32,498 nucleotides of DNA from NCBI GenBank assembly GCA_000310025.1, contig FN649753.1, positions 548,624-581,121 of the forward strand, in the 5' to 3' direction. The notes beneath the pieces were generated by a model. The model was not told where the DNA came from. It was given only the letters and a program-made list of their open reading frames with translations, and made no database searches. Below, one piece after another: positions 542 to 32,438 of this stretch. Origin of the DNA: Ectocarpus siliculosus (lineage: Eukaryota > Sar > Phaeophyceae > Ectocarpales > Ectocarpaceae). Position 1 is the stretch's first letter. Each line of letters begins with the position of its first letter. Position numbers and translations under genes: made by a program.

Positions 542-613
542 CTCCCCTGCCGGGAATTGAACCCGGGTCTCATCGGTGAAAGCGATATATCCTAACCATT
601 GGACTACAGAGGA
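542..613 (-). tRNA. tRNA-Glu (anticodon UUC)
   Basis: On the minus strand a 72-nt cloverleaf can be folded. The acceptor stem TCCTCTG pairs with CAGGGGA (one G-U), with G as discriminator. The D arm carries AATGGTTA, the anticodon stem TATCG pairs with CGATG, and the 7-nt loop CTTTCAC gives anticodon TTC. The T arm CCGGG-TTCAATT-CCCGG is perfect. Both internal promoter boxes look normal, there is no intron and CCA is not encoded. It decodes GAA/GAG. It stands alone, about 1.5 kb beyond the 3' end of the nearest protein gene. Confidence 0.96.
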
Positions 614-3462: not shown

Positions 3463-6400
3463 CGGTACCACTCCCGGACGAGGACTCCGACGCAGTCGCA
3501 CCTGCGGAGAGAGAAAGAGAGAAAGAGCTGAACAACTTATCACCCAGGGTACTCTCGCTCGGGTTCGAAATGTAAGTATCAGTTGCGACGAGCGTCGTCC
3601 AACGGGTGGCCATTGGATGCGACGGTTGCTGAGTCGGTTCTCCCTCCATTGCTACATCTCGACCGACACTGATCACCCCACGATGATTTTTTGCTGGCTC
3701 CTTGTGTGTAGGGCCGATCTTCCTCTTTGCTTCCTCTTTGCTTCCTCTTTGTCCGGAGGGTGACAGCTATTTACACTCTCGATACAAACACAGCACGTAC
3801 ACGAAACTCGGAGGGGCCTGGGTATAACCTCGTCCTGTTCCAAAGTCAACAACACTCTATGACACAGCGTTAAGCCAGAGAGAGGTCTTCGAAACAGAAG
3901 CCGATAAGAACAACCAAGGGATAATAATACTTTGTCCTTTTCAGGTGTCGACAAACACGAGGGATGAGGCCGGGCACACGAGCGATATAACGGTACCTAC
4001 TTCTAGATATTGAATTCGAGAATGCACCTTCTTCCGTAGAGCTCAGTCGCCTTCGTTTCCGCCCCGCGTTTTCCCCGGCGGTCGCACTACTGTCACCATC
4101 CGCATCAAGGCCGGCTTCGCCGCTATCAGCATCCGTCGATGATGATGCTGATGGGTTCACGCTGGTGGCTTTTCGACCACCCTCGAAAAATTCGGACGCG
4201 GACACGGTCGACGGGTTCCTAGACATGGAGGTGTCGAACACAGGGGATCGGAAGGCCTGGAGAAGACCGTTGGCTCCGGCCTGTTTGTGGAGGAGGGGGG
4301 CGTACTCTTATGTTTTGCATGCCTTAGCGGTTATAGACCATTGACCACGCGTCCTCGAGAGGACGGAGCATTGTTCCCACAGGACCGATCACCGATGGCC
4401 AATCGTTCCTTCCTACTGTGTTTGTGGAGGAAACAATACAATGGTAACTCGTACTATCGCCTGATGTTAAATTGAAATATTGTTAGGCTTCCCCCGCGCA
4501 GTTCATTGGGACGGAGAGCCTGGCACAATCAGTGGTCGTACAGTAACGTGCTTCTTCGTTCTCTGGTGGGTCTTTGCTGCCCACATGCCGTGCAATCGTA
4601 CCTCGACTGCCGCGTACAGTGGGAGCTGACTCTTCACGGAGTTGAAGTTGCTGGCGTCGACGTAGCAGAAACGCACGGCTGTAGCTCCTTCGTCCTCTGC
4701 GCCACCACCCGCCTTTGCCCGCCAGGACACGGCGCCCCCCGACGGCACGAACAGGTTGTCGCCGGCGGACACGTCCTGGGCGTTGGTCCTGCGGCAAGTT
4801 GCGCACGTTCGGGAAACAAAGAAGGGAAGGGCGTCACCCTAAAGGATAGGCATACAAGGCAGGACAGACGGCTCAAGATAAAGGAGTCTAGCTAACTTAC
4901 AGTCCCGGACCGTTGGGGTCGACCTTTTGCGCCGATCGTTCCGAGTCTCACTATCTACGAGTGGCAACGCTACTGCTGCGCCAAGAAAAAACAAGAATAG
5001 ATGAAACTCTTCGACATACATACCTTGTGACAATGCTGTTGTCTTCGCTGTCTTCCCGCCAGACGTCGGCGCAGTATTTAGGCTCGTGGGGCCAGTGATG
5101 GCTCTCCGAAGGGTGATGAGAGTATCGTCTGTGGCCGTTCGACGTACTGTCGGAAGCGTCAAGTGTTCGGGGCTCCTCCTTCTTCTCGCTAGTGCTCGTA
5201 TCCTCCGTCTCGTCCTTGACCCGTGCTCCGTCCAACGAGCTCATCATGGAGAAGTTCTGCTTCTGTTGATCTGCCGTTGTCCTCTCCAGCCCAAACCCCT
5301 CCTCTAGCGGCTCACGAGTAGGATTCGACGCGGTGCTTGTGATAGTTTCCTCTGCGTGCCCCGAACCACTGCGGTGCTCTTCCCGTTCCCTCTCCTCGCC
5401 GGTACCGTTGTCGACATCAAACTGCTCTTCTTCGCCGGTGTTCTCGTGTCCATCGCCTTCGGACTTGCTGGACTTTGAATCACCATCGTCCCCGGCAGAC
5501 GTACGAGACGGAACAGGAGAGCACGGCGCGTTGCCAAACGTTGGTTTGAGGCTGGGCAACTCGTCGGCCGACGAGTAGACCAACACCTGGAGAGTTCCTG
5601 ACATGACGGTGATCAGGGTGTTGGCCCCCGCGGGACAAGCGGTCGGTGGGGTGTACGCGCCTGGACGGGTACGGTGTAGGCGCTGCCAGCTGCGAAACAA
5701 GGGCGAGAGGGGGGGGTGATGGACTTGAGGTTGCCGGTCTAGACATGCATGGTTTGGCGTTGGCAGTGCGGTTAATCGCGATGCACTTTGCATAGAACGT
5801 TGTTGTACACATGCAAAGCCTTGTGGGAACACCGTGCTTGTAAAATTGTCTTGGTGCTTGTTCCATCGCCTCACGAACACAGCAGCTGCTCCCTCGCATG
5901 TGGTATGTGTCCAAACTTTTGGCGTTGTGGGCGGTACAGCATGGGTGCTTCTGTACAACAACTATTGGCAGCATCGGAGATCCAATATCACCTACCTTAC
6001 GAAGGATGTTGCATCAGATAGATACCACGATCCTGATATTCACAGAGTTCTGTATCTGTCCCCCAACAACATCAAAGGTATACATGCCAAAAGGGGTGGT
6101 CAAGGGAACACTCTAGAGAGGACTTTTAAGATATCGTGGCGTTGGCAAGGCGTTTGGTTTAAAGTGGAGGTCATAACGCAGTATACATGCGGGTACAACA
6201 GTGTGGGTACCCCGTGCTAGTGATTGTAGGCGGCATCAACGTGAAAGCACTGCTCAGAGGCCCAAGTAAATACGGAAATGTCGACCTGCAGAAAATTCAT
6301 CCACGATGCGAGCATGAGGTACGCCTGTAGCGCACAGCACAGATGGAAGACCTACCCAGACACGAAGCGCTCAACCTCGGCATGTTCCCCGACCGGAAGC

Positions 6401-7152
6401 ACGTCCTGTCCCCGAAACCTCTGCACGAAGTCCTCGGAAGCGTAGCGTGGGACTGGCAAGCTCTCCAGCAACGAGTCGTGGCACGCACGCAGGGGTCCAT
6501 CCGCCGTCCCCAACGCTGGATCCACCGAGTGTGCCAAGCAAGATTCTATCCCGCTCAAGATTAGATCCTGGACGCGTTGTTGCCCGTTCTCCTCCTCCCC
6601 GTCCTGTTGAGCGGTATTCATGGCTTGGTCGCCGAGGTCGCCTTGTTCTTCGCCATCCGTAGCATCTGCCGGCTTGCCGCTGCCGCCGGCCCCACCGCCT
6701 CCCGAGAGTATCGCCACCGGGCGTCGGGGCACTGCGTACTCATGGAAGAAAGCCGAGAAAGGGAGCTCCGCTTCAGAAACCACGGCGATCTCATTGGCAG
6801 CCGAATCCAGCGCCACCTGCTGCTGGTGCTGCTGCGTGTCCTCAGCAGCCGCACCAGCGCCTGTAGCGAAAGTTGAACCCGCACTGCTGCTGCTATCGAT
6901 CTTCTTGAGCACGGACTCCAGATACAACGCGCGGTCACACTCCGCCCCCCAGCCCTCGCTCTTGCGGCCATGGCAGTCCGCTAGCATCGTGTCCACGATC
7001 TCCCTCGCCCCCCCTCCGCCGCTGCTGGTGCTATTGCTACTGCTACTGCCTGCACTCAATAGAGCGGTCCACGCTTCCTTCATGTTTGTCTCAAAGAACA
7101 CCGTGCGGGTCGCGAGGGCGAAGTGTGAGTGTACGAGGAACAGCATCGTCAT
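2123..7152 (-). CDS. Secreted JmjC/cupin-like protein with acidic insert and C-terminal FN3-like domain
   Basis: I assembled seven exons by splice signals and phase: 7152-6356, 5689-5024, 4788-4602, 4280-4001, 3501-3332, 3021-2728 and 2257-2127. All junction phases agree, giving about 842 residues if translation stops at the in-frame TAG directly after exon 7. The start at 7152 gives a hydrophobic N-terminus (MTMLFLVHSHFALA) like a signal peptide. Exon 1 has the lead-in of cupin_8/JmjC proteins (FFHEYAVPRRPVAIL; PVPRYASEDFVQRF). Exons 2-3 hold the two cupin halves (ANTLITVMSGTLQVLVY; SAGDNLFVPSGGAVSW), separated by an acidic, Ser/Glu-rich insert of about 165 residues. The expected Fe(II) ligands look replaced. 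Exon 5 encodes a polyserine run from CAG/GCT repeats. Exons 6-7 resemble a fibronectin type III domain (ACTVEW; TNLAPDTLYR). The function is unknown. An alternative is that it ends at 4503, as a JmjC-only protein, with a second gene below. The JmjC part is firmer than the FN3 part. Confidence 0.66.
3252..3305. repeat. (CAA/CGA)n trinucleotide repeat
   Basis: A run of CAA and CGA triplets on the plus strand (GTT/GTC on the sense strand), just inside the intron that follows exon 5 (3332) of the JmjC-FN3 gene. It produces long spurious Val or Thr ORFs. Confidence 0.9.
4282..4431 (-). mobile_element. Short dispersed element, copy 1, with 13-bp target duplication
   Basis: The element (about 4295-4418) is nearly identical over about 118 bp to 31126-31241. 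Exact 13-bp direct repeats TGTTTGTGGAGGA flank it at 4282-4294 and 4419-4431, which is evidence of insertion. It contains the palindromic CGTCCTCGAGAGGACG core. It lies in the intron 4601-4281 of the JmjC-FN3 gene, and its conserved end is 19 nt from the last base of that intron. On the gene strand its ends read GTAGGAAGG at the start and a pyrimidine tract at the end. The family is unknown; it may be a MITE, SINE or introner-like element. Confidence 0.8.
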
Positions 7153-9662
7153 CCATGGCACTATTGATGCTGTCCCTCTGCCAGTTGTCGCCCCCGACAA
7201 GAAGCCACCATAATGATGTTGCTGGCCCCTAGTTCGATGCATGGCCTTTTGAGGGAGATAAGTAGCGCGGTCCCTCAGTTCTGCAGGGACAGGCTGCCTT
7301 TGTTTCACGCGGTAGGCAAAGATACCAAAGATATCGCGCGCATACGCGTGCCCGGGTTTGCTTGCTGGTTTCGAAGCGTTCTGGATCTTGACGAGAAAAA
7401 AACTGAAACCGTCGTTTCGTGTGATTTTGTGTGGAGGCCCCAAAGGGGGGCGGAGAGGTCGGTGTAAATGGGGTCAGATGTACGGCGAGAACTGATGAGT
7501 ATGTGGCGGATTCGAAGCCCTGCATTGGCCAACGCGGCTTGGATAGAGGTTTCAAAGGAGCGTTTGCAGTTGCACAATGCAAATTCTATAGTTACCTCCC
7601 GAACGTCTGAGTCGTCGTTATTTCGAGCGCACTGCTGTGGAAAAGGAGTTTTTCCGATGTGCAAAATTTTGTTTGTACGCCTCTTGCTTTCAAGGACGAT
7701 TCCCTGATTTCGCAAAGTGGCAGCAGGTTTCCCTTCATTTGAACATGACAGCAGTTGCACATCCAGTTTTACGATATTTTGGGTGATGGACGTCTGGATT
7801 TAGCACGGAAATGCCTACTTCTTTCCAATCTTTCCTATCAACGCCATGAAACTTCGTTGAAATTTGTCTCATGTCAAGATGTGACCGATTGTAGTAGAGC
7901 CACCAGTGACAATAGATGGGGACATTGAGCAAAGATCTCGGGAGATATCGCTGTGTATGGCGCACGCCACAGACCTAGAAAGTGCTGCTTTTAAGTCCGT
8001 GGACTTGTCACGAAAGTTGCAGAAACTAGCAGTAGTTGCGGGATGGTCGCACTACACAAACTCCTACTTGCTATCTACAAGCTACAAGTTTCCCCATACG
8101 GCATCCACGTAGGACAAGACGGCACGCACGCGCTTTCAGAGGCCCTTGCAATACATCGCATGGCGGAACCGTCCGGGAAAGCACTCGGATCTTTGATTTA
8201 CACTACAGCGCGGCCGCCCTGCCTGCGAGCCACGGCGATCGAAGCGTAACAATAAAAAATTATCACAACGCGTCGCCGACAATTGCTCACAACTCACCGA
8301 GAGTTTTGGAACTGCTTTCTTCCGGATACTCAAAATGAACACGATGGAAGGATACGAGTGTTACTTTGCTGGAAGCCGCCGTAATACTGTTGCTTTGCAA
8401 CGCGGTTTTCGTCCAACAGTCTCTTCACGAGGCCTATTTGGAGTTCCTCTTCCTCAGAGCACTCACCCTATCGGCAAAACTGCACAACAAACACGGCATC
8501 CAGGAACGGCAACATTACCACGACATTGGGAGGGGCTTCAAAAGTCGCTCCATTCAACAGAAGAGCGACAGAAAACCGGACCCAAGACGCGTCGCTTACG
8601 ATAGAGCCTACAGTTCCTCATCTTCTCTCGAAAAAAACGCAAAAAACAAAATCCTGTCGCTATGGGAAACGGCAACTACATACCGCGACATTTGGGAGGG
8701 GCTTCAAGTCTCTCGATTCCAACAGAAGAGCCACAGAACCGGACCCACGACACGTCGTCAGCGATCAAGCCTATTGCAGTTCCTCCTCACAGCACCAATC
8801 CTCAAGAAAAAAACACATGCTTCGAAGTACACAACAACAGCTAGGAACCGGCTCTAAATAGAGGGGCGCAAAGTCTCTCTAGGCACTAAATAGAGAGCCA
8901 GAGAAGCCGGATTCAAGAATCGTTGTTCACGGTTCCACGACGCCGATGCGGGACACACCCTAACCCGCCTCTCAACAAAATCCGACAACTATTGTACTAC
9001 CCAGAAAATACACTATACACGTCGGCCCGACGTCGACACCGACGAGCGGTTCTTCTTGCCGAGTCTCCGAAGAAAATAACAAAGGAAAGAATGTTTACCT
9101 TCGACAAATTCCAATATTGCTCGCGCAGAGTCTGCTCTCAAGGCGGGTCCTTTGTCGATCAAACACACCCAGCAGTGCTTAGGGCGCGCGGGTTCTACGT
9201 AGCTAGAGTGGTCTTGGGAAAGCGCGCTAGTGTTGTCGGTAGCACACGATGTGCCCCCAGCCCTGACCCAGCACGTACATAGTCGTACCGCATTAGCAGC
9301 ACGACACACCGCACGCCACCACAACGACAACAGCGACGTCTCTTCCCCGTCTCTTCCCTTGGGGACGCTGGAGAGAGGGCTCACACCCTAGGAGCTACCC
9401 CCCCCCGCGCCCCCTGGCCATGCGAACGTGACGAACCCACGGTGCTGCTTGATGTTTGATTTCCGCAAGCCCCCGTTCAAAACTGCCAGACTCGTCGAAA
9501 CTGCACAAGAGGAAAAGAGAGCGACGGAAGGACGGCGATACAATCCACCAGCGTGCGAAAAGGAGGGCAAGGGAGGGAGGGAGCTAACAACATTACCACC
9601 GGGCAGTTCTGGACGCAGGCTACACGATTCTTTCCTTGCTTGAATACGCCGGGTTGCCGTTG
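7153..9662. other. Intergenic region between two minus-strand genes
   Basis: This 2.5 kb separates the 5' end of the JmjC-FN3 gene from the 3' end of the FBXO9-like gene. It should contain the promoter of the former, but I see no clear TATA or other element. The only structure I can support is the diverged tandem duplication at 8505-8825. ORFs here lack recognisable domains. Confidence 0.5.
8505..8825. repeat. Diverged tandem duplication, about 158-bp unit
   Basis: Two copies begin near 8508 and 8665. Each starts with an ACGGCAAC-type motif, then an ACATT-GGGAGGGGCTTCAA segment, CAACAGAAGAG, ACCGGACCCA, and ends in an A-rich run. The copies differ by many substitutions and small indels, so the duplication is old. 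A 163-codon plus-strand ORF crosses it, but I see no family resemblance in it. Confidence 0.75.
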
Positions 9663-12600: not shown

Positions 12601-14197
12601 GAGGGGAAACTGTCACTCTAGTCGCGTTCCAAGCACTTTCTTACCTCTAAAAAATGACCCACTCGTTCTGTTGGCAGCGACATAAAATCCCAACCAAAAG
12701 AACATGTGTCTCTAAAACCGGGATCGCTGCTCAAGAGCTGACAAGGTCAACAAAAAGAAGACAAAAAAACACGCGGTAAACACATGCAGGTACCTGCGCC
12801 AGGTAAGTCCTTCGGCACAGCCCCTCGTACACGTTCTCGTGTCCCGGGAAGCTCCACCGAGAGCTCACGGCCCGGCACTCGAAGATGTCTTCCGGGTTCA
12901 GGAAGAGCATCGTGCGGTGCAGGATGTCGTCCGGCATCGTCAGGACGATGTCTGGCGGGAGCGGCGTCACCTCTTCCCCCTGTTCCTCATCCATCGCCGT
13001 TGCGATCTTCGGCAAGTGTTCGTTGTCGGCGGCGGCGGCGCCGACGTCCTCCTTTGCGACCCCCACCCTTACCCCGCCCTCGTACGCCTTCTTCGCCAGC
13101 TTATGGTCGTGTTCCTCCTCCTCCTCCTCCGCCGGCGTTTCCTGCGCACGATCGGTGGCGGCAGACCCATCACCGACGGCCCCCGTTGCAACCGGTATGA
13201 TCCCCCCGTCCTGAGTGACTACGAGCTCGACGTCGCCGTAGTCTTCCTCCTCTTCTACCTCACGGTCCTCCTCTTCCTGGGCAGTGGTAGAGCCGTCTCC
13301 GGCTGTCGCACCCGCGGCGGCAGCGCTCGATCCGCCGATAGGCTGCTGTCCAAGCGAGGACGCCGCCTCGTTATCCGCGGCAGCAGCGGCTTCGCCCTCT
13401 CCCTCCTCTCCCTCCACCGCGTTCGTCGCGAGGGCGTGGAAGCCGGTGTCAACGAAGCTTGCCTCGTCATCCTCCCTACCGCTACCTTCTAGGCTGGACG
13501 CGACACCGACAGGGCCACCGTCCTAAGCATAAGAGAGCAGACGGGGACCGGGGAACACGGGGAGGGAGGGAGATGTTCATCGTGCAGCCTCCAAACTGTG
13601 CCATGACATCGAACTGAAAAGAAGGCAGGACCTCGCCCACAGCACGTTAACCGTGGGACATGAAAAACGAAGACGAAACGGGGGTATATCACGACACACC
13701 CCTTGAGGGGGGCCGAAGCACACGCCGTTCCGGAAGCACACACCGACAACTTCGCGCACCCAACAAAACCGATCAAAAATAATCTCCTCGCTGCCGTACC
13801 CAATTCCATCGAGCTAAGCTTGCTGAGTAGAACAAAACAACAAAAGAATGGACTGCGAGTAGAACACGCGGTTAAAAATTGCTCACACCTGTCGGCTCTC
13901 TCGGAGGGCCTCTTGCAGCTGCCTCTCCGCCTGCCAGTCTCCCGCTCTCATGCCCGCAAGGCGAGCGGCGTCTTTCCCTTCGCGGGCGGTCATCTGCTCC
14001 CACAGGGTGTTGCCCACACCACTGCCGTCGCCGAGGTTGCCGTCGTCCGCTACCTGGCTGCTGGTTGCTGTGTCGTCGTTGCCGGCGGCCTTTGCGGTGC
14101 CTTCGGCGCCTGCGTTGGGTCGGCCACGTACATGGGCGCCGTGAGACCTTTGTAGCTCCCACCACATCCCATGAGCATTCTTACTTCTCGGGGTCAT
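9663..14197 (-). CDS. FBXO9: F-box protein of the FBXO9/Hrt3 family
   Basis: Exons by phase and splice signals: 14197-13889, 13522-12794, 11897-11806, 11203-11131, 10748-10653, 10179-9955, and a tentative last exon 9743-9663. The F-box sits at the end of exon 2 (MPDDILHRTMLFLNPEDIF). After it come the conserved FBXO9 elements: WRSWQRMFKFRPRLRDTGLY, LKTTYFKKPVRDM, VTYYRYFKFFGDGRVAYAL, and VFGTYTISKWEVNVEIP with FTHLVMLRHSSVS. FBXO9 proteins are substrate receptors of SCF (Skp1-Cullin1) ubiquitin ligases. Residues before the F-box are very acidic and Ala/Glu-rich; I do not see the N-terminal TPR of the animal protein. The start is uncertain (ATG at 14197 or 14167, or an upstream exon), and the C-terminal exon is uncertain. 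The core from exon 2 to exon 6 is secure. Confidence 0.85.
12525..12606 (-). pseudogene. tRNA-Ser(CGA)-like relic
   Basis: On the minus strand a D-arm-like GTAGTGGTTGAGG is followed by GAGGA-GACCTCGAA-TCCTC, which resembles a Ser(CGA) anticodon arm but has a 9-nt loop. A B-box-like ACTTCGAGTCCC comes next. I could not close a proper acceptor stem. It lies inside intron 2 of the FBXO9-like gene. It may be a decayed tRNA or the head of a tRNA-derived SINE. Confidence 0.35.
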
Positions 14198-16204: not shown

Positions 16205-19200
16205 ATGCTGCTGGGCGATCGCGTCGCCTCGGCTGTGGTTGAGCAGTTCGACAATCTCAAGTCTCGTGGGAAGCCCCAAGGGAAAGAGTGGACCGTTTTG
16301 GCTGGCATTGTGGCCCAGGACACGCGGGTGAGCTACACGACAGCAGTACAACTGCTGTTGCAGACACTTCGTGTGTAGCCCCAACAGCGCATGCCCAGAC
16401 AGGGAACGCGTTCAGGGCCAAGAAAAAGGAAACACGCCCACTGAACCTTTGCGCAACCCCAGCAGTACGTCCTCGTTCGAGCAGAGAAAATCCCGTGGTC
16501 TACGTAGTCTATGGTGGAGTGCCTCGAGACGACCTCTGCTGGTGTGGTTGGCGGCCTACTGCTGCTGTATTCCCGACCGCATGCCATCTCACGCATCTGA
16601 CACTTGTTGCTGGCTGAGATTGGTGCGGTGGACGCCCTTGCTATCCTGCTCGATCGTACGTCACCACCATGCCCAAACCCAAGCCTGCAACGTACGGGAT
16701 GGACGTCCATCCGAGGTTCAAACCCTTCCCAACCTCGCCCACCCGACCACACGCTCGTTACCAACACCACCAGACAGAGTGCTGCACCGCTGTGGCTGGG
16801 GCCAACTCTTCTCCTTGCTCTTGTCTGCGAGTAATCAGCCTCGCCACTGGGAATAAGTGCGTCGGGAGGGACAAGATTCCCGATGACGGGTCGGTCGTGC
16901 ACGACTCCCACGCAGAGGTATGCATGCACAGCAGCAGCGCTTGGTATCATGCTTGTACGTGCACCAAAATGCGTTCTAGGTTCTATGTAGGCCACCTCGC
17001 TCGACAGGGAGCCCTTTCAATCTTTTGGCGCTTGTTGAACTACTCGTCAGCGAAGGGCGAAGCGACATTTGCCGCGCGTGGGGGTTTTCGTTAAGGGAAA
17101 TGGACAAAAGTGGGTATACCCACGCCATTCTCGGACAAAAGTGGGTACTCGAAAATCCGGCGCGCGCGCCCTCCATAGGCGACCCCCAAACGACTCAAAA
17201 CCCCATTCTGACACCTGGGCGACACAGCCAGGGACCACATCGCTGTGGGTATACCCAGCGGCGTCAACTAATTTTTTCATGTACCCACTTGTGTCTATAG
17301 TTTGACCCACTTTTGTCCAAATTGTACCCACTTTTGTCCACTTACGGACAGCGGAAATCGAGCGGAAATCGACCTCCACGTCACCGTACGGTAGAACATC
17401 GACTGGCCTCGGAACGTCTCAGAATCTCCCAACACCGAATCCATGGCATCTCTCCTATCCATCGCTACTGACTGCGGACCGACCGCGGGATATCGGGTCG
17501 GATTTGCACTTCGTATGTACATGTCCAGGGTGTGATGTACATACATGTAGTGCATATGAATACCTTTAACATCACGTAGTAGTTGGGTGGTAAACTGCCT
17601 CGACCTGCTGCTGCTGCCCTCACGAGTCGGTGTGCACTCGTAGTGGTGGTCGGTGTTTTTTTGTGTGTGTGGCGCGTGTGTGTGTCTGTGTTGCTATATG
17701 CGCGTCTTTTTGTCCTGTATGTGCGCCCGTTGGTTTTGTTGTCCGTTGTGTGTCACGCATTTATTTGTGGCATGCCGTTAGTGCGCTGCTTGCCGGACTT
17801 GCGGCGGGTATCTTCCCGTGCCTGGTATCTTCCCGTGCCGGTACCGAAGGGGTCTGGCATGTTTCTGATATGTTCCTCCGCGGTCGGTCCGCAGTCGGCA
17901 GCCATGGATAGGAGAGATGCCATGGATTCGGTGTTGGGAGATTCTGAGACGTTCCGAGGCCAGTCGATGTTCTACCGTGCGGTGACGTGGAGGTCGATTT
18001 CCGCTCGATTTCCGCTGTCCGTAAGTGGACAAAAGTGGGTACAGTTTGGACAAAAGTGGGTCAAACTATAGACACAAGTGGGTACATGAAAAAATTAGTT
18101 GACGCCGCTGGGTATACCCACAGCGATGTCGGACAGAAGTGGGCACTCTGGTGAGGCCTTGCGCGCCTCGGCGGTATTAGGGCCAAAGGTGTGCCTGAAA
18201 GTGGGGAAAAATCGATGCCCGTGCTGTGTATGGTCCCTGGCTGTGTCGCCCAGGTGTCAGAATGGTGTTTTGAGTCGTTTGGGGGTCGCCTATGGAGGGC
18301 GCACGCGCCGGATTTTCGAGTACCCACTTTTGTCCGAGAATGGCGTGGGTGTACCCACTTTTTTCCATTTCCCTTTCGTTAATGTGTTGGCGGACACGCA
18401 AAACGCAACTGCTTGCGTGGGAGACAGGACATGTTCGGAACAAAGCAGCAACCTCAAGTGAAGTACAGCGCCTGCGTGACGTAGCGCATATTCTTACAAG
18501 CAACGACGGGTTCAATGTTACCATCCTTCGTTGCTCAGCATTTCTCTTGTTTATGTACTCCAGGATCTTTGCCGGACGAGGTTTCTCGTACGCAAATGAG
18601 TATACGTATATCTCTTCCTGTTCTCTTTTTCTCGCTCATGTGCGGGGCAATGTAGGTGCTCGCCCGACGTGCGCTTTTGCTGCGTCTTTGGAGAGAGCTG
18701 CACCTACGGGTATCATCCGCAGCTGGGCGGCAACAAGATGTCACGATCGACGAACGCAAGGGAGGAGGGACTCCATGTAACAGCGGCCGGTCCGACGGAC
18801 GTTCAACGCCATCATCGTCGACTACAGCTGCAACGGTGGATGCACACCCACAACCTCCGCTGTACGGCGGGGTCCTACCTGGAGAGGACGATGGGAGAAT
18901 CCTCCTGTTGGAGCGGAGCCCACAAGCTACAGATGCCGGAGCTTGCATCTCCTGGAGGTTAAAGCCTTACATCCGCCTGCACTTGTACATCAGCGATGCG
19001 CCCTGCGGGGACGCTTCCATCTACGAGCAGAAGAGGCAAGCGCCAAACGTTGGCGGCGGGGGTAGCGCTAGATGCGGGGGTGGTGACGGTGATCCTGGCA
19101 ACGACAGCAGTTGGGACGATGCGCCGCGCTCTACTCCTCTGGCAGGCAGTCGGAGCGATGGCGAGAGGCGGGGGCGGGGCGATGCCGACCGCGGCGATGC

Positions 19201-21938
19201 CAAACGAGCTCGTTGCGCGGTGGCGATTGCTGGCTTAAGTGATGCTGTCGCGCCATCACCCCGGCCTGATCTGCCACTGGATGAAGAACGGAGCTGCTCC
19301 GCGGCGAGCTTGAACCCGTTGGACTGCAAACCCCGGGAACCGGAGGTAAGAGTTGGCGAAAAACTCTCAGGACAAGGACAAAACATGGGTGCAGAAACGA
19401 TGACCTTTACCGGAGCCAAGATCATAGCCGCTGTGAAAGAAAGAGGGGCTCCAGACCGCAGCTTCAGTGCATACGGAAACGAAGAGGGGGGCAAAGCGGC
19501 GACGGCGGACCTCGTGCTGCGCATCGACCGGGAGCAGGAGCAACAGGTGGGCGCGCTGAGGATCAAGTCTAGCCGGAGCAACATTTCGGAGGAAGGGCGG
19601 ACGATGTCCATGTCCTGCAGCGACAAGCTGGCGAAGTGGGCCTTCCTGGGTGTGCAGGTGCGTGAGATGCTTGCTCTTGTCTTCTTGTCATGGTGAGCGA
19701 CTCGCAGTGTATGGATGCTGCCCTATTAAAACCCTTCAATATTGTATGCGCTTGTTGGTGCCTTTGTTCTGGGTGTTGCTTTTCGCGTCAATCCCCATCC
19801 TTTCCAGCAACGAAACTCGATGAACGTATCATGCCAACAATCCAACTCCTGTTCCTTGGTTCGACCAATAACTCAACCCTCAACGACGAACGCTCTCCCC
19901 CCCCTTTGCCCATCCCTAGTGTTCCGAACAATGCTGCGAACATCCTCTTCTTGGCGGTACGTCCCACCTCCCACTTGCTCGCCAATTCCATCCACCCCCA
20001 GCCAGGTGAAAAAAGTAGGTGATGGTGCTATCCCCCCCATTCTTCAATTTCCCGCGCTCACCCGGACGCTGTCCAACGTCATTGCGTTTCATGCTGAAAC
20101 GGTTGGAAATCACTCGCTCTTGTCTCGTCGGAAAATCTATCTGACAGGGAGGATTGTTGGCTTCGTGGGTGGAGCCGATCTTCCTTTCCTCCATCGTCAT
20201 CAGCGCGGACCCGCGCACGGACGGCCCAGCCCCGCTCGCATCGGCGCTGACGAGAGCGATTCCCGGCAGGGCGGCGTTGGCCAACCGCCGCTCGTCGTTC
20301 GACGGTACGACGGGGACGGTGGGCGGGGAGGAGCATCTTTCTCACCCACCGATGCCGCGGGAGGAGGAGGAGGAGAGGATGGCAGTCTTCGTATCCGAAG
20401 TCACGTTCGCGAGATCAAAGGCGCAGGTCTGTTCGCTGCATTGGCAGGCAGGGGCCGGGGTCGAAGTCAATGTCTTGTCTCGCCAACGTAGAATTTTGGC
20501 AGTCAACGGATTTTGTGAGGCAGGCTTGCCTTTCCGCGCATCGTTGCGGGAATCGTTTGTGTGTATCATGCATGAAGCGTATATTTTTCTCTCCCGGTTG
20601 GGTTGCGTTGTACACCGTGCAACTGAACAACACACAGCACATTGATTGCCTGTTCGGCTCCAGACGTGTTTCTGGGGAGGCTTATATGATGGAACGGTAG
20701 ATCGACACGCCAATAGCGATTTATGTCAGAGCAAGTGCTCTCTCTCTCCAGTTTGCCCCTGTCTGATGTCATTGCCTGCAGCAGGGTGGTATATCTTTTT
20801 CCCGCATGAAATCTCGGTAACCGTAACCCGCGCACCCGCACCGGTCGGTACGCTACACAGTCGGAGCAGCGAGTGTTCGACGACGAAGGGTCATGTTCTT
20901 CAACAAGCGGCGTTGGTTCACCCGGCTCTATTACCCCCGCGAAAGCAACGGTATCATCGGTTAAAGCATCCCCGTCGATCGCTGATGCCTCCATCGCTGC
21001 CGGTTCTGCTAGACAACGCATGCCGGGGGACAACGACAGGAGCGGTCGTGAGACCAGCCAGGGAACCAGGTCGGACAACAGCATCATCGGCAAGCGATCC
21101 CGTCGTGATCGCAAGCCGAAGAAGGTAGTGCCGAGCGGAACCTCCCTCAACTGGATCGAAGGGCTAGGTACAGGGAGAGGGACCGGGCCCGGCGGGGGAG
21201 ACACAGCTAGGATCCAGGCAGAGGTGACCTTATCCGCCACGGGAAGGATGCAGGGAGCGGTGTCAAAGGGCGTGCTGACGCTACGGACCAGGTATGCGCT
21301 GCTGCGGTTGATGTTGATGTTGATGTTGGTGGTGGTGGTGGTGGTGGTGGTGGTGATTGCGAGTGCATGGTTGTTTTTTGTTGTTGCTGTTCTTGATACT
21401 CCCGCCGTAAAACCTCTGTTTGCAAACACAACACGCCTGTCTGTGGGTGGGTGTCATGAGGCATGGGTGTTGACCTTGTTCTTGCTAGATCTCTGTCAAC
21501 TAGCTATCCCCGAACTATCTTCGACCATCTTCTCCGTTGCTCCTCTCGTCTTACATTTTTGACAGATCCCGCTTGTGCCGCGCACGGTTACTCGAGGCCG
21601 CCAATCTCGTCGCACGGGCGTACCTCCCTCAAAGAGCACCCATGTGTGACCACCACTACAGCGACATCGAAGGTACAGGAGAGGAGACGGAAACGGTACA
21701 AGCAGGGGAAGGCGCATCAGGGAGCGAGGGGCCAGAAAGCGGAGGACGCTCGTATTGGCGGCTGAAGCAGGCCAGTCGTGCCTACCGCGTGCGACGGGAG
21801 GCGATGCTGTCCACGCCGACTTTCAGGGCGTGGCTGGTCGGGGGGAAAGACAAGCAGAGATTCGCGGTCGACGAACGGACCGGCGTGGTGCTCCTCGCGA
21901 AGGCTCCCGCCTCCCGGCCGCCGCCGACCCGGTCTTGA
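16205..21938 (+). CDS. ADAT1: tRNA-specific adenosine deaminase 1 (Tad1/ADAT1)
   Basis: ADAT1 deaminates A37 of tRNA-Ala to inosine. Exons: 16205-16327; one ending at 16917; 18656-19657; 20148-20426; 20861 or 20870 to 21291; and 21566-21938 (stop TGA). The start region (RGKPQGKEWTVLAGIV) and ATGNKCVGRDKIP are typical of the family. Zinc and catalytic residues are all present: HAE in VHDSHAE, PCGDAS, and the cysteine of SMSCSDK; FTGAK also fits. Later blocks LSSIVISADP, VVPSGTSLNW and the C-terminal helices (YWRLKQASRAYRVRREAML) complete the A_deamin fold. A Gly/Asp/Arg-rich insert separates PCGD from FTGAK. The exon 1 to exon 2 junction is unresolved, because no canonical acceptor matches the phase; a small extra exon is likely. 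The intron 16918-18655 holds a 1.28-kb transposon. Confidence 0.9.
17086..18382. mobile_element. Mutator-like foldback element, copy 1, with 9-bp target duplication
   Basis: The element is 17095-18373 (1,279 bp). It begins GGGAAATGG and ends CCATTTCCC. Perfect 9-bp direct repeats TTTCGTTAA flank it at 17086-17094 and 18374-18382. Long inverted arms (about 17095-17488 and 17878-18373) contain several GACAAAAGTGGGT motifs and the palindrome GTGGGTATACCCAC. The left arm lacks about 115 bp present in the right arm, so the arms are asymmetric. The centre has no transposase. A 9-bp duplication with long terminal inverted repeats is typical of the Mutator (MULE) superfamily. It lies in the ADAT1 intron between the HAE exon and the following VLARR exon. 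Confidence 0.92.
21308..21353. repeat. (GTTGAT)n / (GGT)n microsatellite
   Basis: A run of GTTGAT followed by GGT units just downstream of the donor at 21291, within the last intron of ADAT1. Confidence 0.9.

Positions 21939-25166: not shown

Positions 25167-32438
<7,272 letters not shown>

Follow-up and report, generated by a model that had tools for sequence, protein, structure and literature searches.

The window analysed here is a 32,498-nucleotide stretch of the Ectocarpus siliculosus genome (assembly GCA_000310025.1, contig FN649753.1, positions 548,624 to 581,121, forward strand). Its minus strand carries a three-exon gene whose product is probably a JMJD5-like (Cupin_8) JmjC protein, and in which the residues expected to bind iron and 2-oxoglutarate have been replaced. 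Exon 1, drawn from an open frame, its methionine positions and a GT donor at 6355, occupies 6356-7242, or 7152-6356 if translation begins at the methionine chosen by an earlier note on this DNA. The JmjC N-terminal element lies in this exon, together with a hydrophobic start, a stretch containing Cys and a 43-residue insert rich in Gly. Intron 1 (5690-6355, 666 nucleotides, GT...AG) separates it from exon 2 (5024-5689), which holds the proximal cupin motif and an acidic insert; intron 2 (4789-5023, 235 nucleotides, GT...AG) is followed by exon 3 (4503-4788), with the distal cupin motif GDNLFVPSGGAVSW, then TAVRFCYVDASNF, and the stop codon included.

Joined at these GT-AG borders, the three exons form one open frame. 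The earlier note had placed the gene at 4503-7152, and its exons, its stop and an in-frame methionine at 7152 all fit; however, in-frame methionines lie at 7242, 7152, 7146 and 7083. Because the one at 7242 is further upstream and the frame stays open up to 7473, the gene has two possible starts (7152 and 7242), giving proteins of 582 and 612 residues, respectively; residues are numbered here from the methionine at 7242. Across the joined coding sequence, the guanine-plus-cytosine (GC) content of the first, second and third codon positions is.62,.51 and.70; exons 1, 2 and 3 taken singly give.66/.49/.71,.58/.52/.69 and.63/.52/.72, whereas the introns have overall values of.50 and.51. The stop-to-stop frames of exons 1 and 2 reach 373 and 336 codons, compared with a longest frame of 296 in 300 shuffles of the region. 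From the splice sites, the open frames and the codon-position GC of all three exons, we take the gene to be intact and coding. An 87-nucleotide repeat, 97% identical between its copies at 4334-4420 and 31158-31244, has one copy starting about 80 bases past the stop of this gene.

JMJD5-like domains open with an element of the form F...Y..P.RPV.I, which classical cupins lack, and the window protein carries a counterpart in exon 1, AFFHEYAVPRRPVAILS (6703-6753). It was scored with a profile of 35 JMJD5-like domains, comprising 20 mid-scoring Cupin_8 matches and 14 earlier loci (34 domains from bacterial genomes) together with JMJD5 from a PDB alignment. At AFFHEYAVPRRPVAILS, a match that had been spotted by eye before this profile was built, the 17-column N-terminal block scores 21.2; when the exon 1 part was shuffled 5000 times, no shuffle came up to this value (best shuffle 14.4). 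Across the window, whose 797 six-frame open reading frames (ORFs) total 54,579 residues, this is the sole match of 15 or more; the 820 ORFs (118,725 residues) taken from the Cupin_1 loci and from one E. coli locus score no higher than 15.3. The 35 members of the profile range from 2.8 to 35.0, and no score above 20.5 was seen among 38 other Cupin_8/JmjC sequences that are not part of it, so that 21.2 is the score of an ordinary member. This element is the JmjC-specific part of the evidence.

Further along, the core motifs G..TP, V.G....L and GD.LF.P, which are generic to cupins, are present in order at residues 304, 320 and 520. When 14 profile blocks were placed freely with their ligand columns masked, five found their best position where a JmjC domain would have them, and in the expected order: EAELPFSAFFHE (157), YAVPRRPVAILS (169), RPGAYTP (304, only 0.1 ahead of its second-best position), TLITVMSGTLQVLVYSSAD (320) and NAQDVSAGDNLFVPSGGAVSWRAKA (520). 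Summed over the ordered blocks, the score exceeds that of all 1000 shuffles when the inserts are cut, and that of 992 of 1000 for the uncut protein. This test is not specific to JmjC proteins, since it also favours three of eight Cupin_1 proteins, each of which was equalled by no more than 1 in 200 shuffles.

The same profile places the active-site positions. In GAYTPPTACP (5632-5661), the first iron-binding His falls on Thr312 (5643-5641) and the Asp on Cys314 (5637-5635); the 2-oxoglutarate-binding Lys falls on Leu329 (5590-5592), the 19-column block scoring best at TLITVMSGTLQVLVYSSAD; and in PSGGAVSW of exon 3 (4745-4722) the second His falls on Val538 (4730-4728). For the PRGTxTP block, RPGAYTP at residue 304 comes out on top only narrowly (8.4 vs 8.3). 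By this alignment, the whole His-x-Asp...His iron triad and the 2-oxoglutarate Lys are absent. The earlier note had read Thr and Cys for His and Asp, and Val for the distal His, by eye, and had proposed the loss of all three iron ligands; the profile arrives at the same residues. In the 35 JMJD5-like models these positions are close to invariant: both His residues are present in all 35, the Asp in 31 and the Lys in 33, with three His and one Ala in place of Asp and two Arg in place of Lys. Against these models, a loss of all four residues appears exceptional. The model with Ala for Asp is probably L138 (from G297; YHCANE), and the four of 35 without Asp represent natural partial losses in bacteria.

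Could the missing ligands be an artefact of splicing? This was ruled out: in the genomic sequence GAYTPPTACP and PSGGAVSW each lie uninterrupted within a single exon, and other splicing therefore cannot restore the ligands. Nor does the loss depend on calling the protein JmjC. The metal pattern of Cupin_1, His, His, Glu and His, reads Thr, Cys, Asn and Val in the window protein when placed by the general cupin motif; since it hits the same Thr, Cys and Val, the loss of the site is independent of the family call, and the earlier claim holds for a Cupin_1 protein too.

The family call itself has much to contend with, and the following results weigh against a JmjC assignment. Pfam reports nothing for the uncut spliced protein, and neither JmjC (PF02373) nor Cupin_8 (PF13621) was ever matched by the natural sequence, uncut or cut. 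A version from the methionine at 7152 with only the Gly-rich insert removed likewise gave nothing in Pfam. Constructs with the inserts cut out match Cupin_1 (PF00190) in four of five cases, with expectation values (E) of 6e-5, 7.6e-4, 1.2e-4 and 1.1e-5; three exceed the cut-off of 22 bits (23.1, 22.1 and 25.5), one falls below it (19.5), and the fifth, which lacks the distal motif, has no match. Loss of the ligands alone does not explain the absent JmjC match, because four JmjC control constructs (one of them a join of two loci) with both His, the Asp and the Lys masked keep strong JmjC/Cupin_8 matches (best E 9.3e-26, 1.7e-27, 5e-13 and 1.7e-25), and none of the four matches Cupin_1. Restoring the four residues of the window protein in silico left Cupin_1 as the best family (1.3e-6), with Cupin_8 at only 0.016, below its cut-off.

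Our own earlier profiles point the same way. The trimmed protein scored 1.9 bits with a first Cupin_8 profile (13 sequences; equalled by at least 5 of 1000 shuffles) and -0.9 bits with a second (10 sequences; best shuffle 7.7), and a mixed JmjC profile (18 sequences) was equalled by 8 of 2000 shuffles. On the shortest construct, an earlier JmjC profile scored 4.3, with 4 of 2000 shuffles as good. Motif matrices, whose shuffle counts were made after the removal of two misplaced rows (L175 and L136), gave a mixed picture: the first proximal-motif matrix did not choose GAYTPPT (1549 of 2000 shuffles as good), and the distal-motif matrix was equalled by 1 of 2000. Earlier and smaller matrices for the N-terminal element were equalled by 134 of 2000 shuffles (42 sequences) and by 3 of 2000 (a subset picked after the match had been seen), and nine of the 14 blocks of the 35-sequence profile score best at places other than those expected. 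Regular expressions found neither a proximal nor a distal motif, NCBIfam returned only EutQ (E 0.12), and sequence searches of the PDB found no JmjC relative, with one unrelated match each (E 3.1 and E 1.3).

Much of this would be accounted for by a cupin outside the JmjC family, of the Cupin_1 type that includes germins and storage globulins: a barrel without metal ligands that serves a structural or ligand-binding role, as in the seed storage globulins. Cupin_1 is the only family that reaches significance in Pfam for the natural sequence with inserts cut, and on the shortest construct a Cupin_1 profile from 20 loci scored 8.1, ahead of all 2000 shuffles (maximum 7.1), which the JmjC profile of the same stage did not achieve. 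Metal-free, non-catalytic cupins are described in PMC3765361. On the other hand, the Cupin_1 match is limited to two generic barrel motifs (profile positions 40 to about 121 of 151), and this explanation leaves AFFHEYAVPRRPVAILS in exon 1 unaccounted for, with no ORF of the Cupin_1 loci exceeding 15.3 for that element. We regard a Cupin_1 origin as possible but rather improbable. The JmjC or cupin domain announced by the earlier note therefore stands on its N-terminal element and its ordered motifs, but not on any Pfam match to JmjC or Cupin_8; on that footing, the JmjC call is more probably right than wrong. Two narrower assignments made by eye fared less well: a JMJD6-like one was rejected on the spacing ahead of the first ligand, and a JMJD4-like one was rejected or weakened. 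A search of viral contigs for JMJD6-like proteins found none.

Searches for orthologues of the spliced protein were also negative, both in viral contigs (18 stretches fit the pattern, none confirmed) and in contigs of bacterial and archaeal genomes (24 stretches, none confirmed), which again does not help a JmjC assignment. Such a result, together with the large distance from every JmjC profile tried, might be expected if an active JmjC gene had given rise to a paralogue that is now decaying and has no function of its own. However, each of the three exons retains an open frame, GT-AG borders are preserved at both introns, and codon-position bias differs little from exon to exon; moreover, because the collections consist of viral contigs and bacterial and archaeal genomes, a miss there says little about algal orthologues. 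We therefore consider decay unlikely, less so a Cupin_1 origin.

Beyond the barrel motifs, the protein carries additions that bear on what it might do. The earlier note had described an acidic insert of about 165 residues splitting the two halves of the domain; it is indeed present and acidic, but measures 173 residues by the boundaries used here (5024-5541, after SLKP and before TNAQD). It is Ser/Thr-rich, with 23% Asp and Glu, 11% Lys and Arg, and 23% Ser and Thr, and its C-terminal end holds a His-rich stretch of 21 residues, HRRYSHHPSESHHWPHEPKYC (5071-5133), six of them His and one Cys. At the other end of the protein, the hydrophobic start has a best 12-residue mean hydropathy of 1.92, at SIVPWMTMLFLV, and is followed by Ala-Leu-Ala, which would suit cleavage. 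Two His break up this start, and the upstream methionine at 7242 would add 30 residues. The 612-residue form contains three N-x-S/T sites and eight Cys. The earlier note had taken the start as signal-peptide-like and the protein as a lumenal or secreted pseudo-hydroxylase; for a lumenal fate we would put the odds at about even. A predicted structure of exon 1 alone was of low confidence (mean predicted local distance difference test score, pLDDT, 54.4; predicted template modelling score, pTM, 0.35).

Taken together, we favour, with moderate conviction, an intact gene for a JMJD5-like JmjC protein in which the iron triad and the 2-oxoglutarate Lys are replaced by Thr, Cys, Val and Leu, and which would work by binding rather than catalysis. 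In such a protein the barrel would presumably still fold; without the use of iron or 2-oxoglutarate, neither hydroxylation nor demethylation would be expected. We posit that it serves as a binding module: a partner protein would sit in the former substrate groove, and the long acidic Ser/Thr-rich loop between the halves would offer a second contact surface, which is probably phosphorylatable. Perhaps, and of this we are less sure, the hydrophobic start takes the protein into the secretory pathway, as in JMJD8. Or has the metal merely moved? Cys314 and the His-rich HRRYSHHPSESHHWPHEPKYC, just ahead of the distal motif, could form a new transition-metal site and thereby turn a JmjC hydroxylase into a metal-binding or redox protein, an idea to which we give very little credence.

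JmjC proteins with a degraded site are already known, and the described examples compared here retain part of it. If the JMJD5-like assignment is right, a gene that has lost the whole triad and the 2-oxoglutarate Lys yet kept its frame open would offer nature's own clean test of the role left to a JmjC barrel once its chemistry is gone. In the literature on brown-algal and stramenopile JmjC proteins and on JmjC pseudoenzymes we found no such protein named, which is not proof of absence, and little on JmjC-only proteins in this eukaryotic lineage.

Elsewhere, the window holds several features apart from this gene. A fold-back element spans 28709-30039, with arms at 28709-29286 and 29462-30039 that are 578 nucleotides long, 99% complementary and 175 nucleotides apart. 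A related copy lies at 17093-18375, with arms 97-98% complementary, and one arm of each is 94% alike between copies; by their sequence, the two look like a mobile fold-back element. Two stretches of the ORF at 18656-19696 (plus strand) match the adenosine-deaminase (editase) domain PF02137 (E 6.2e-18), and this ORF is perhaps a tRNA-editing deaminase gene. On the minus strand, the ORF at 12731-13522 has an acidic Ala-rich stretch followed by an F-box (PF00646, E 2.7e-5), and a frame at 27931-28983 with a WD40 repeat (PF00400, E 1.7e-6) runs into the fold-back element. The editase, F-box and WD40 neighbours are of eukaryotic type and, like the spliceosomal-type introns of the JmjC-like gene, agree with a eukaryotic genome. 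Both Rfam and ARAGORN place a transfer RNA for Glu (anticodon ttc) at 542-613 (minus strand).

How does the window protein compare with known systems? JARID2 and JMJD8 offer precedents. In JARID2, an essential JmjC protein according to PMC11241480, the catalytic residues are substituted and the role is non-catalytic, both traits that it would share with the window protein. JARID2, however, is a nuclear, multi-domain protein of the KDM5 branch with JmjN, ARID and zinc finger domains, none of which Pfam reports in the window protein. JMJD8 has a signal peptide, resides in the lumen of the endoplasmic reticulum and carries His in place of the Asp ligand, as described in PMC5684140. By description only, it resembles the window protein in its changed iron site and in a possible secretory start, but one ligand is changed in JMJD8, as against all three and the Lys here. 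A changed site need not mean inactivity, since JMJD8 is reported to demethylate AKT1 (PMC9820096); UTY, formerly called inactive, was likewise found to be active according to PMC4140284. Both reports speak against an easy inference of inactivity from sequence.

With Cupin_1 (PF00190), the window protein shares the generic barrel motifs, and this is the only Pfam family above its cut-off for the natural sequence; it differs in possessing the JmjC N-terminal element, which Cupin_1 lacks, and an inter-motif insert far longer than that of the model. The closest likeness on our preferred assignment, that of a JmjC protein, is to JMJD5 (KDM8): its N-terminal element reads QFLVPGRPVIL where the window protein has FFHEYAVPRRPVAIL, and the two share the G-x-x-T-P spacing ahead of the first ligand and the order of the core motifs. 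Where they part is in the active site, His, Asp, Lys and His in JMJD5 against Thr, Cys, Leu and Val in the window protein, and in the two inserts, one acidic (173 residues) and one Gly-rich, that the Ectocarpus protein has in addition.

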